Notes under the pieces: model-generated
The model's database searches: none
Told to the model about the DNA's origin: nothing
What the model saw: only the letters and a program-made list of their open reading frames with translations
Origin: Armatimonadota bacterium
GTDB lineage: Bacteria; Armatimonadota; SYMT01; JACQGL01
Direction: 5' to 3'
Assembly (NCBI GenBank): GCA_016199525.1
Contig: JACQGL010000187.1
Location: 1-32,686, forward strand
Length of the DNA stretch: 32,686 bases
Program-made: the position numbers and the translations under genes
In this document: piece by piece, positions 22,475 to 26,796 of the stretch
Position numbering within the stretch: position 1 is the first letter of the stretch
How the letters are laid out: the number at the start of each line of letters is the position of its first letter

Positions 22475-22922
22475 GGTCGCTCCGTGAGCAACAGTTATGG
22501 TACATTCCGACGTTGGCCCGGCGATTCCTCGCCGATCTGTTCATCGCCCGCGGCTACATTTGCCGACGCAGGTAACGAGATCAGCAAAGGTAGCATTCCG
22601 GCAGGGCGCGGGGCCGTGCCGGGCAGAAACGCCGGCTGCATCGCGGGGCGTGGGCGCCGCGCCGTTACGAAGTAGCAAGCCCGGCGGGAGATTGCCGGGC
22701 GATTGATCCGTTCCCCGTTCCGTGGGCTTGCGGTTCCTGCTCCTACCAGTGATGCGTACCGGCAGGTGATAGGAGAAAACAAATACTGTATGATATACCG
22801 CGATGCCGAGTAAGGCCTGGAGAGGAATCGTGCCCCGGCCGGCGAACTGAAGGGTGATCAGGCAGTCAGAGGCCTGCGGAGGCCACCCGCGTCTGCGGGT
22901 CCGACGTCCCTGGAAGCGGCCA
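22475..22922. other. Intergenic region upstream of the FHA gene
   Basis: This 448-nt stretch lies between the divergent infC and FHA genes. Open frames within it are shadows or extensions without protein features. A TATGATATACC segment (22789-22799) is the best plus-strand -10 candidate for the FHA-kinase-VWA unit; no matching -35 is seen. Confidence 0.4.
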
Positions 22923-23690
22923 ATGTGGCACCATTCTCCTGCCAACCCGTGGCCGGGGTCACCCAACCCGGCGCCATCCGATTCCCCGGACCAGCGGCGC
23001 GAACAGGACCAGGACTCTAGCTGGCCGCAAGCGGCAGACGCAGGCGTGGAGGGGCCACCTGCCGAGAGCGAGGGTCCCGCGGCGGAGCCACACGATGCCT
23101 GGCCCGCCGCCCCGGGAACGGACCAGGATGCCGCCGCCGCGTGGGGAGTGGCCCCACAGCCGCCCGCCGTTCCAGGCGGGCTCACGCCATCGCCGACTGC
23201 GGCCCCTGTCGCCAGTTTTTTCGACCCGATTGCGCCGCCCCCGAAGGCAGCCGATCCACCCCAGCCGCCGGGTGCGGCCGGGGTGGTCGCTGAAGCGGGC
23301 GCTCCCTGCCCCGGCGGCTGGGACCTGGGTTTCGACGCTCCCCCGGCGTCGCCCGCTCCTGCCGCGCCTGCGCCGCAGTGGGTGCTGGACGTCTCGGTCG
23401 GGTCGCGCCATTCCCAGTACACCCTTGCGGAGGGGACAATTCTGGTGGGACGGCCGGATCCGAAGCGAGGCGTCCAGCCGCAGATTGATCTTCGACCGGA
23501 CGACACTGTTTCCCGTCGCCACGCGCAAATTGTAGGCCGCGGCGGGCGTTATTACGTAGTGGACCTCGGAAGCACGAACGGCTCCTTCGTCAACCAGCAG
23601 GCCATATCGCCGCACGTGGAAGTGGAGATTCGCCCGGGGGACGAGATCACTCTGGGCGAACTGGCTCGTATTCGCGTTCGCCTGGCGTAA
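22923..23690 (+). CDS. FHA-domain protein with long disordered N-terminus
   Basis: FHA domains read phosphothreonine. Starting at the ATG at 22923 (GGAAG upstream) gives 255 aa; an upstream GTG at 22854 would add 23 mostly basic residues. Residues about 1-140 are Pro/Ala/Asp/Glu-rich and probably disordered. The FHA domain occupies the C-terminal 110 residues: VLDVSVG, ILVGRPDPKRG (Gly176-Arg177), DDTVSRRHAQI (Ser197, His200) and VDLGSTNGSFVN (Asn219), so all the phosphate-binding residues are kept. It is followed on the same strand by a Ser/Thr kinase and a VWA protein. The kinase is the likely source of its phosphothreonine ligand. That link is inferred from context. Confidence 0.9.
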   Translation: MWHHSPANPWPGSPNPAPSDSPDQRREQDQDSSWPQAADAGVEGPPAESEGPAAEPHDAWPAAPGTDQDAAAAWGVAPQPPAVPGGLTPSPTAAPVASFFDPIAPPPKAADPPQPPGAAGVVAEAGAPCPGGWDLGFDAPPASPAPAAPAPQWVLDVSVGSRHSQYTLAEGTILVGRPDPKRGVQPQIDLRPDDTVSRRHAQIVGRGGRYYVVDLGSTNGSFVNQQAISPHVEVEIRPGDEITLGELARIRVRLA

Positions 23691-23706
23691 GTATCCCGGC
23701 CGCACG

Positions 23707-23764
23707 ATTGTTACCCTGCGTCTTACCTCTCTTACCCCGGAACCCCAGCCATTCGAGTAACAAT
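23707..23764. repeat. 8-bp inverted repeat between FHA and kinase genes
   Basis: ATTGTTAC (23707-23714) and GTAACAAT (23757-23764) are perfect inverted arms 42 nt apart, with three TTACC words between them. CTATACGG follows directly. This may be an operator pair or a folded leader for a kinase-gene promoter. Confidence 0.4.
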
Positions 23765-23829
23765 AAGCTATACGGCCCGCACGGGAAGCAAGCGGCAGAG
23801 ATGGTGCGGGTTCATTTGGATCAGGTTCT

Positions 23830-25353
23830 ATGCAGAAGCGTCGCCGTGTGGGTGAAGAGTACCAGCTGGCTCCCGGGGAGCAATTGACCGGCCAGCGTAC
23901 CTATCAGGTGATCCGCTGCCTGGGTGGGGGAGCGTTCGCGCTGGCCTACCAGGTGGCCACGGAATCGGGGCAGGTCTACTTCGCCAAAGAGATGCGCGAG
24001 CCGGAGAGACCCGGCGATGCCGAGGAGGCGTTGCGCATCTATCAGCGCGAGTGTGACGTGCTGCGGCGCCTGGGCAACTACGAGCTGATCCCCCAGATGC
24101 ACGATGCCTTCGAGGACTCCGGCTGCCGCTACATCATCCAGGACTACATCGCGGGCGTCGACCTCGATACGCTGCTGCAATCCGGCCAGATCCCCGATCA
24201 GCGCACGGTAACGCGCTGGTGCGTCTGCCTCTGCCACATTCTGGCGTTCTTGCACAGCCGCAGCGTCGTCCATCACGATCTGAAGCCGTCCAATATCCGC
24301 CTGAACGAGGACGGCGATCCCGTGCTGTTCGACTTCGGTGCGGCGCAGTGGTACCGTCGTCGGGACGAGAAGGTAGATACCCTCTACGGGACGGAAGGCT
24401 ACCTGGCCCCTGAGTATGCCGAGCAGTCTGCGGAGGATCTGGCCGCGGGCATGCGGATGGACGTGTTCGCTATGGGCCGCATCCTGGTAGAGTTAATGGC
24501 CGGGAAGCGGCTTAGCCAGGAAGACATCGACCGCCGCACCCAGCAGCTTTATGGTTCTATCCTGCATAGCCAGCGGCTGGACGATCACTTCGTGCGCGCA
24601 GTGTTTCGTTCGGTGGACTACAATCCAGAGCGGCGCTACCCGAACGGGATGGAGATGGAGCAGGACGTGATGGCGAGTGCGCCGCCGATGGGGCGCGTCC
24701 GTCCGCGTGAGCTGGTCCTCTATGACGAGGGACAGCGCGCACCCGAGGCCAGCCTCACCGTGTACAACGTGGGGGGAGGCACGCTGCACGGTTCCGTACA
24801 CGTGGATGCCAGTTGGCTGGATATTCTCCTCGCCTCCACGGAGAGAGCTCGCGAGCAGACGATCCAGCGCAACCGCGCGACGGTGCGGCTGGCGGCCGAG
24901 GCCACGAAGGTGCCCGCCGGCCAACCGGCGCAGGGGAAGATCATTTTCCAGTTCTCGCACCAGGAGCCGGTGATCGTGCCGGTGCGGCTGGAACGCTCCG
25001 CCGAGGCACCGCGTGTTCAGGTGTCGCCCGCCGAGCTGCGGCTGGTGGCAAAACCGGGCGCGTGGGGGCGAGATAGCCTCACGTTTCGCAACCAGGGGGC
25101 AGGCGAGGGGCGGGTCGAGCTGGTGCTCCCTGCCGATCTGCCCGTGAGCGTGGCGCCGGCGGCGTTCACTCTCGCCCACGGGCAGCAGCAGATAGTGACC
25201 GTGTCCGTACACGCCGGCGACTTGAGGGACGCCGATACGGAGCTGGCGCTCGCCTGGCGCGTGAACGAGAACGAGCGGGACCCCATTCCCCTGCGGGTTC
25301 AGGTTCGCAGTCCTGGCCTGCTGGCGGCGGTGAAGCTGCCGTTCCGCCGCTGA
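23830..25353 (+). CDS. Ser/Thr protein kinase with tandem Ig-like C-terminal domains
   Basis: This 507-aa protein has no signal peptide or membrane helix. The kinase domain (about 25-275) shows the glycine loop LGGGAFALAY (31-40), Lys53 in YFAKEM, the C-helix Glu74, HHDLKPSN (148-155) with the catalytic Asp150 and Asn155, LFDFG (Asp168) and LAPEYA (193-195). It should be active. HHD replaces the usual HRD, so it is not an RD-type kinase. Two beta-rich repeats follow (about 283-400 and 405-500): LTVYNVGGGTLHGSVHVDASWLDI and LTFRNQGAGEGRVELVLPADLP. The first resembles Ig-like repeats seen next to chaperones and kinases in filamentous or deep-branching bacteria. It lies between the FHA and VWA genes. 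Confidence 0.9.
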   Translation: MQKRRRVGEEYQLAPGEQLTGQRTYQVIRCLGGGAFALAYQVATESGQVYFAKEMREPERPGDAEEALRIYQRECDVLRRLGNYELIPQMHDAFEDSGCRYIIQDYIAGVDLDTLLQSGQIPDQRTVTRWCVCLCHILAFLHSRSVVHHDLKPSNIRLNEDGDPVLFDFGAAQWYRRRDEKVDTLYGTEGYLAPEYAEQSAEDLAAGMRMDVFAMGRILVELMAGKRLSQEDIDRRTQQLYGSILHSQRLDDHFVRAVFRSVDYNPERRYPNGMEMEQDVMASAPPMGRVRPRELVLYDEGQRAPEASLTVYNVGGGTLHGSVHVDASWLDILLASTERAREQTIQRNRATVRLAAEATKVPAGQPAQGKIIFQFSHQEPVIVPVRLERSAEAPRVQVSPAELRLVAKPGAWGRDSLTFRNQGAGEGRVELVLPADLPVSVAPAAFTLAHGQQQIVTVSVHAGDLRDADTELALAWRVNENERDPIPLRVQVRSPGLLAAVKLPFRR

Positions 25354-25374
25354 AGATTCTGCGCCTAAACCTAG

Positions 25375-26796
25375 ATGGAAGTGCCACTTTCCATCTCTGC
25401 CACGTTAAGCCATACAGCTGCCCTGGCGGGAACGGAGCCGGAGGAGCCGCTCTACGCCCTCATTCGGCTCCAGCCGGCGCCAGCGCCGCAACGGCCACGC
25501 CTGGAATTCGCCTGCCTCCTGGACGCCAGCGCCAGTATGTACCAGTTCCGGCTTGACCCGCAGGAGCGAGAGCGCTGGCGCCGGCTGGCAGAAGAGCGAG
25601 GTGACATCCGGCGCCAGATAGCGGACGGCCGCGAGGCAATCATCTGGACGGGCCGGACGCTCCAGGAGATGCAGCGCCAGATCAGCACGCCGATGCTGAG
25701 CGCTGCGCGGGCGCTGTGGCGCGGTCTGCAAGCGCTGGATCCCAACGATGCGGTGGCGGTGCTCGCGTTCAACGAACGGGTGCGCGTAATCCTGGACGAT
25801 CCAGGCGGGTCCGAACGCACTCCGACGGCGCGCGCCGCCACGGCAAGGGAGGCGCTCGCTCTGCTCGGGCAGCCGCTTTCCCAGGCAGGCCTGGAACAGG
25901 AAACGCGTCTGGAAGAGGCTTTGCGCGCCGTCATCGCCCGCTGGCAGGACGTCTCCCCGCCGCGTACCGCCCGCCGCCTGCTGCTCATTAGCGATGGTGT
26001 GGTGGTCGATCGTGACGCCTGCCTCTCGCTGGTGGAATCGTTCCCGGACTGCGGCATTGTGGTGAGCACAGTGGGCGTAGGGGGGGAATTCGACGAAGAA
26101 CTCCTGATGCGGGTGGCGGATATCACCCGTGGCAACTACACCTATGCCCCCACGGCCCTGGACCTGGAGCGCGCCCTCGCCGAGGAGTTCGCGCAGATGC
26201 TGCGCGTCGTCGCCCGCCAGGTCCGATTTAGCTTCCACCTGTCCGCTCAAGCCTTGCTGCGGAGTTTCCACCAGGTCTCCCCCCAGATCGCCGCCTTCCC
26301 GCTGATGTGGGCGGACGCAGGCGTGCGTGAGTTTCACCTCGGCGAGGTGCGCGCGGAGGAAGCGGTGGAGCTGCTGGCGGAACTCGCTCCTGCCGCCGCG
26401 TCCGAGGGGAACGTGGAGATTGCACGCGTGGTGGCCCGTGGCCAATCCCTGGACGAGAACGAGGCATTCACTGTGGAGCACCCGCTTAGCCTGCTGGCCG
26501 TCACGGATCCGGCACTGGCGCACGCCCGGGACGAGTCGGTGATCGATGCCGTCGCCCGTACCGCCGTCTACCTTGAGGAGCGCCGCGCGCAGGAGGCGCT
26601 GGATCGAGGCCAGGGAGATGCGGCCACCCGCCATTTGCAGGTGGCCACGCGGATGCTGCGCAAGATGGGAGCGGAGACCCTGGCTGCGGACATGGAAGCG
26701 GCGGCGGCGGAGATCCAGGCGGGCACGCGCAGCCTGAGCCGCACCAAGCGCATCAAGGCGGGCACCCGTCGCCTGGGAACCCCAGGGAATGAGTGA
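25375..26796 (+). CDS. VWA-domain protein, cytoplasmic, with helical insertion
   Basis: This 473-aa protein lies 21 nt after the kinase gene. The von Willebrand A domain has an intact MIDAS: DASAS (50-54), LLISDGVVVD (Asp207) and NDAVAVLAFNERV as the central strand. A charged helical insertion of about 40 residues (57-97, ERERWRRLAEERGDIRRQI) sits between the MIDAS strand and the first helix; I do not know it from ordinary VWA domains. The C-terminal part (about 285-400) is beta-rich, followed by helices EERRAQEALDRG and MLRKMGAETLAADMEAAAAEI. There is no signal peptide. It is probably a metal-dependent binding scaffold whose partners include the kinase and FHA protein, judging by gene order only. 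Confidence 0.88.
   Translation: MEVPLSISATLSHTAALAGTEPEEPLYALIRLQPAPAPQRPRLEFACLLDASASMYQFRLDPQERERWRRLAEERGDIRRQIADGREAIIWTGRTLQEMQRQISTPMLSAARALWRGLQALDPNDAVAVLAFNERVRVILDDPGGSERTPTARAATAREALALLGQPLSQAGLEQETRLEEALRAVIARWQDVSPPRTARRLLLISDGVVVDRDACLSLVESFPDCGIVVSTVGVGGEFDEELLMRVADITRGNYTYAPTALDLERALAEEFAQMLRVVARQVRFSFHLSAQALLRSFHQVSPQIAAFPLMWADAGVREFHLGEVRAEEAVELLAELAPAAASEGNVEIARVVARGQSLDENEAFTVEHPLSLLAVTDPALAHARDESVIDAVARTAVYLEERRAQEALDRGQGDAATRHLQVATRMLRKMGAETLAADMEAAAAEIQAGTRSLSRTKRIKAGTRRLGTPGNE

Follow-up and report, generated by a model that had tools for sequence, protein, structure and literature searches.

A conserved FHA–kinase–VWA gene triad in Armatimonadota with an ArnB-like VWA protein and an invariant C-terminal threonine

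The window analysed here is a stretch of 32,686 nucleotides from an Armatimonadota bacterium (assembly GCA_016199525.1, contig JACQGL010000187.1). Between positions 22,923 and 26,796, three genes lie side by side on the plus strand. Their products are an FHA protein, a Ser/Thr kinase with an HHD (non-RD) catalytic loop, and a VWA protein (Table 1). A first-pass annotation, made from the sequence alone, had described this arrangement, and our analysis bore it out. The Pfam scan of the neighbours found housekeeping genes on the flanks (cobalamin adenosyltransferase, MOSC, and IF-3). As the start of the FHA gene we prefer the ATG at 22923, with the SD-like GGAAG upstream, to the alternative in-frame GTG at 22854. 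A consensus scan of the region found two promoter-like sites, against 0.5 expected. The maximal 19-residue mean hydropathies of the three proteins are 0.78, 1.57, and 1.45, respectively, and none is typical of a membrane helix; judged by hydropathy, the earlier statement that the proteins have no membrane helix is correct.

Table 1. Features of the triad locus in the window
Feature	Positions	Strand	Remarks
Promoter-like site 5' of the FHA gene	22766..22794	+	GTGATA-17-TATGAT, 9/12; consensus match only
FHA protein	22923..23690	+	Disordered Pro/Ala-rich arm and C-terminal FHA domain; Pfam FHA, E 4.9e-17
FHA domain proper	23343..23687	+	Form specific to the clade, with lengthened loop (RPDPKRGVQPQIDL), from the alignment
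Ser/Thr kinase	23830..25353	+	HHD loop, C-terminal Ig-like/HYDIN-type beta-sandwich domains; Pfam Pkinase, E 1.9e-34
VWA protein	25375..26796	+	ArnB-like build: VWA, beta-sandwich, and C-terminal four-helix region; from MIDAS, Foldseek, and model
VWA C-terminal helix motif	26740..26775	+	RTKRIKAGTRRL, with T457 and T464; proposed kinase target/FHA docking site

Profiles built from orthologs were run against 291 genomes of the phylum, with cut-offs of E<1e-180 for the VWA protein and E<1e-60 for the full-length kinase. VWA orthologs were found in 13 genomes, and full-length kinase orthologs in exactly the same 13. All 13 also have an FHA ortholog, and eight further genomes gave weaker FHA matches. 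The order FHA-kinase-VWA is kept in six genomes, namely the window genome (G000) and five genomes from three other families: G001 and G002 (f2, of the same taxonomic order as the window genome), G054 (f27), and G009 and G089 (f9). The families f27 and f9, as well as f22, share only the phylum with the window genome. In two of the six ordered triads the FHA genes are doubled in tandem. In seven genomes of f22, the three genes stand at three separate loci, and none of the seven has lost any of them. The first-pass annotation had named conserved adjacency as the check to be made, and rare co-occurrence or shuffling as the contrary outcome. The adjacency was found in six genomes and co-retention is complete (13/13), also where the genes are dispersed in f22. 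These observations support reading the three genes as one module. Common descent may account for some of the co-occurrence in the 13 genomes, but less readily for co-retention after dispersal.

The N-terminal arm of the FHA protein comprises 160 residues, 78% of which are P, A, G, S, D, E, or Q; this composition agrees with the long disordered arm noted earlier. In the alignment, the phosphothreonine-binding residues GR, SRRH, and STNG are kept in the window FHA domain. The FHA domains of the triads and of the f22 genomes form one clade (SH-aLRT 90). Where the FHA ortholog stands unlinked, in f22, the next gene is also conserved and encodes about 304 residues (L109:3395-4309, with equivalents in L110-L114).

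In the kinase, the Gly loop is at residue 32, and K53, E74, HHD (148-150), DFG (168-170), and APE (193-195) follow; the HHD in place of HRD had been read correctly in the first pass. K53, E74, D150, N155, and D168 are invariant in the six triad kinases, so that the active Hanks-type residue set is complete in the alignment. In the G002 and G001 triad kinases (L028:8319-9851 and L029:5805-7334), DFG reads DFS or DYS, with the catalytic Asp kept. Pfam recognised one HYDIN-type Ig domain in the C-terminal part (residues 415-483, E 9.1e-6), where two Ig-like repeats had been claimed; the beta-strands of the AlphaFold model fall into two stretches, at about 288-389 and 396-492, and this fits two repeats.

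The triad kinases form one clade (SH-aLRT 99). When the motifs were read over the kinase tree, an HHD kinase was present within the clade of the orthologs in each of the 13 genomes. In the kinases outside this clade that were gathered from the loci, the loop reads HRD or YRD, except for one HGD; in a few the motif could not be read. As read from these sequences, HHD is thus restricted to the clade of the triad kinase. G108 has one extra, divergent copy in this clade, without a readable motif. A second kinase gene lies just 5' of the triad FHA gene in both f9 genomes (L031:4811-6091 and L035:6089-7378), and the L035 copy bears TPR repeats.

The window VWA protein is below the Pfam threshold by itself (VWA_3, 24.7 bits against a cut-off of 27), and a scan of the contigs with this single protein found one weak relative only (L027). 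Among its orthologs, 10 of 10 matched the VWA family, the best at 6e-18. The MIDAS residues D50, S52, S54, T177, and D207 are conserved in all 21 homologs aligned, in agreement with the intact MIDAS noted at first. Key catalytic and binding residues are present in all three proteins, kinase, MIDAS, and FHA, as the first reading had it.

For the AlphaFold model of the VWA protein (mean pLDDT 85.8), the best PDB matches by Foldseek were the Catenulispora VWA protein 4FX5 (5e-25), ArnAB 8S05_A (6e-21), and vWA2/ArnE 5A8J (4.5e-20), over more than 480 alignment columns and with TM scores of 0.63-0.74 by target. A profile search of the PDB sequences gave the same top three (4FX5, 8S05, and 5A8J). 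The protein has the domain order of ArnB, with VWA set into a beta-sandwich, and in the model it ends in four helices (387-410, 414-431, 434-449, and 454-468). Sec23/24 of the COPII coat is also among the structural matches, a likeness that has been published for ArnAB too.

In four f22 genomes, a TPR gene lies directly 3' of the VWA ortholog (L034:8910-9653, L036:8183-8902, L100:7918-8637, and L101:8611-9354); the one of the four that was scanned with Pfam has a DivIVA match. G054 has a TPR-DivIVA-PilZ gene at L032:11157-12896. The product of these genes is a possible output partner.

The last helix of the VWA protein has the sequence RTKRIKAGTRRL. T464 is invariant in the 20 homologs with readable tails; no other Ser/Thr column is invariant except for the MIDAS residues and S206, which stands beside the MIDAS Asp. 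T464 is part of TRRL in the window protein, and the T-x-x-L spacing presumably suits FHA domains whose +3 preference is hydrophobic. T457 occurs in all but one of the six linked triads and in each of the eight more distant homologs; the six f22 tails that are readable have another residue there. As the f22 proteins keep the tail threonine though their genes are unlinked, the tail and the linkage are separable. In the model, T464 sits in a predicted helix, which would need to unfold for the threonine to bind an FHA domain.

A module of similar build is known from Sulfolobus. The Arn module consists of ArnA (zinc finger and FHA domain), ArnB (vWA, beta-sandwich, and helix bundle), the kinases ArnC and ArnD, and the phosphatase PP2A (PMC6509490, PMC12852372; PDB 8S05, 5A8I, and 5A8J). 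Phosphopeptides from the C-terminal bundle of ArnB were found in vivo (RMELIETTRR, ISESIETTRR, and IGTVEQTR), and truncation of the bundle abolished phosphorylation by ArnC and strongly reduced ArnA binding (PMC6509490). FHA binding is promoted when ArnC phosphorylates the alpha8-alpha9 threonines early on (PMC12852372). The same problem of a masked helix exists in ArnB, for which unmasking has been reported. Phosphorylation of the ArnB tail is the closest precedent for what we propose for the tail of the window VWA protein.

The triad shares with the Arn module an FHA protein, a VWA protein, and a Hanks-type kinase as separate proteins, the tripartite VWA protein, and a basic, threonine-containing C-terminal helix with a TRR motif. 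It differs in that it is bacterial, the kinase gene belongs to the cluster itself and its product has an HHD loop and Ig-like domains, the tail has one or two conserved threonines where ArnB has many, and there is no archaellum as output. The ArnA-type zinc finger was not found in the window FHA protein, which has the Pro/Ala-rich arm instead, and Pfam gave no match to ArnB_C in any of 10 VWA orthologs at E values up to 1. We thus call the triad Arn-like and not a member of the Arn module. Zinc-ribbon-like FHA N-termini (CxxC..CxxC) occur in G009, as a sub-threshold match, and in G089, as CxxC pairs. The Arn module is the closest relative of the triad in build and probably in working too. We found no description of a bacterial module of this kind in the open-access literature.

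We favor, with somewhat better than even confidence, the reading that the triad acts in the cytoplasm as a phospho-switch, similar in its working to ArnA/ArnB/ArnC of archaea. It builds on the gene order and co-retention, the intact catalytic, MIDAS, and FHA-binding residues, the ArnB-like fold, and the invariant tail threonine. The HHD kinase would phosphorylate the threonines of the last VWA helix, T464 and, where present, T457 (motif T-x-[RK]-[LI]). T464 may need to be unmasked first, as reported for ArnB. The FHA domain would next dock on the tail phosphothreonine and tighten the complex, and the VWA/beta-sandwich body may hold a further partner via its MIDAS. This order of events, from the kinase to the tail phosphothreonine to FHA docking, is likely, as we infer. 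The first-pass annotation had already proposed that the kinase phosphorylates the VWA protein, or itself, and that the FHA protein assembles the complex; the invariant C-terminal threonine and the match to the ArnB fold strengthen the version with the VWA protein as target.

In bacteria, FHA domains commonly read autophosphorylated kinases, and the three proteins could form one signalling unit in this manner. The VWA protein would then be a scaffold or effector that is bound independently of phosphorylation, and its basic tail would bind the membrane, nucleic acid, or a docking site of the kinase. Indeed, the tail is strongly basic; K458, K461, and R465 were conserved as much as T464 in the first alignment; and the tail persists in f22 despite the unlinked genes. 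However, a threonine that is invariant in 20 of 20 homologs on an otherwise variable surface, together with the ArnB precedent, points to a phosphosite in the tail. We give this alternative something under one chance in four.

The first-pass annotation had likened the triad to TerY-P, in which a TerY-like VWA protein and a kinase go with a PP2C phosphatase, and had suggested that the FHA protein takes the place of the phosphatase. A TerY-P triad that lost its phosphatase and recruited the FHA protein is, in our judgment, improbable. Known TerY-P systems have PP2C, a kinase with a zinc ribbon or OB fold, and a defence or tellurite context (PMC11090510), and they share with the triad the pair of a VWA protein and a Ser/Thr kinase. 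The VWA gene does adjoin the kinase gene, and the genome has a paralogous cluster with PP2C (see below). On the other side, the kinase C-terminus is Ig-like, without a zinc ribbon or OB fold in Pfam or the model; in structure, the VWA protein goes with the ArnB/4FX5 group; and no defence or tellurite genes were found among the flanking genes scanned. The triad VWA protein matched no TerY model in NCBIfam or PADLOC, and neither it nor the FHA protein matched any PADLOC model. With no PP2C at the locus, no zinc ribbon in the kinase, and no TerY match, ArnA/ArnB/ArnC is the better fit. The kinase did match PADLOC models (mad6 and PD-T4-6), but these are generic kinase-domain matches and its partners match none; we rejected a defence system as a candidate.

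The statement that no phosphatase is present at the locus was itself confirmed: the Pfam scan of the genes around the window triad found no PP2C. SpoIIE-type PP2Cs exist in all 13 genomes, including the triad-bearing G009 and G089, none of them at the triad; PP2C_2 had no match anywhere in G009 and G089. A complete paralogous VWA-FHA-FHA-PP2C-kinase cluster lies elsewhere in the window genome (G000:C240:26158-30306, L107), and similar clusters occur in relatives. Like the triad, it keeps FHA, VWA, and kinase genes together; PP2C, tandem FHA domains, and an HRD loop in the kinase set it apart. As VWA, two FHA domains, PP2C, and kinase stand together there, it is misleading to say that the FHA protein replaces the phosphatase. 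The missing adjacent phosphatase is thus a lineage-specific state and not a new principle.

The VWA protein of the paralogous cluster has its own threonine-containing tail (EKTLIGAIVDLDQGK). Its profile match begins at residue 107 and so covers neither the TRRL tail nor the insertion near 56-105. VWA relatives that match profile residues 107-450 are widespread in the phylum, with tails of the form EKTL[IVM]G[TA]xxx[LI]D. A third cluster in the same genome (G000:C207, L043:3569-7801) encodes a zinc-ribbon FHA protein, a VWA protein with a Thr-rich tail, and a kinase with an HGD loop.

It is still less probable that the triad is a cytoplasmic relative of the threonine-phosphorylation pathway of T6SS (kinase PpkA, Fha, and PppA). 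The parts (kinase, FHA, and VWA), the phosphothreonine logic between kinase and FHA, and a weak TagH match of the window FHA protein (7e-10, far below the cut-off) are in its favor. However, that pathway has VWA fused to the kinase, includes a phosphatase, and is tied to T6SS (PMC3953482, PMC5995506), whereas in the triad the ArnB-like VWA protein has a gene of its own, PppA is missing from the locus, and no T6SS gene was identified among the Pfam-scanned, housekeeping flanks. A chance or housekeeping neighbourhood of three common domain families, which the commonness of the folds and the housekeeping flanks might suggest, is refuted by the same gene order in five other genomes and the complete co-occurrence, and has almost no probability left.

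It is possible, though we hold it only tentatively, that the triad is a bacterial switch of the Arn type of independent evolutionary depth, in which a clade of HHD kinases is dedicated to one VWA tail across several families of the phylum, even after dispersal of the genes. The combination of FHA protein, ArnB-like VWA protein, and kinase would then be an ancient inter-domain signalling design and not a peculiarity of archaeal motility. As far as we found, phospho-switching between FHA and VWA proteins has been worked out for the Arn network of archaea, with its many redundant tail sites. In the triad, linked genes encode what we presume to be kinase, substrate, and reader, and the tail has one invariant threonine and one that varies between lineages, which makes it a small, testable system.
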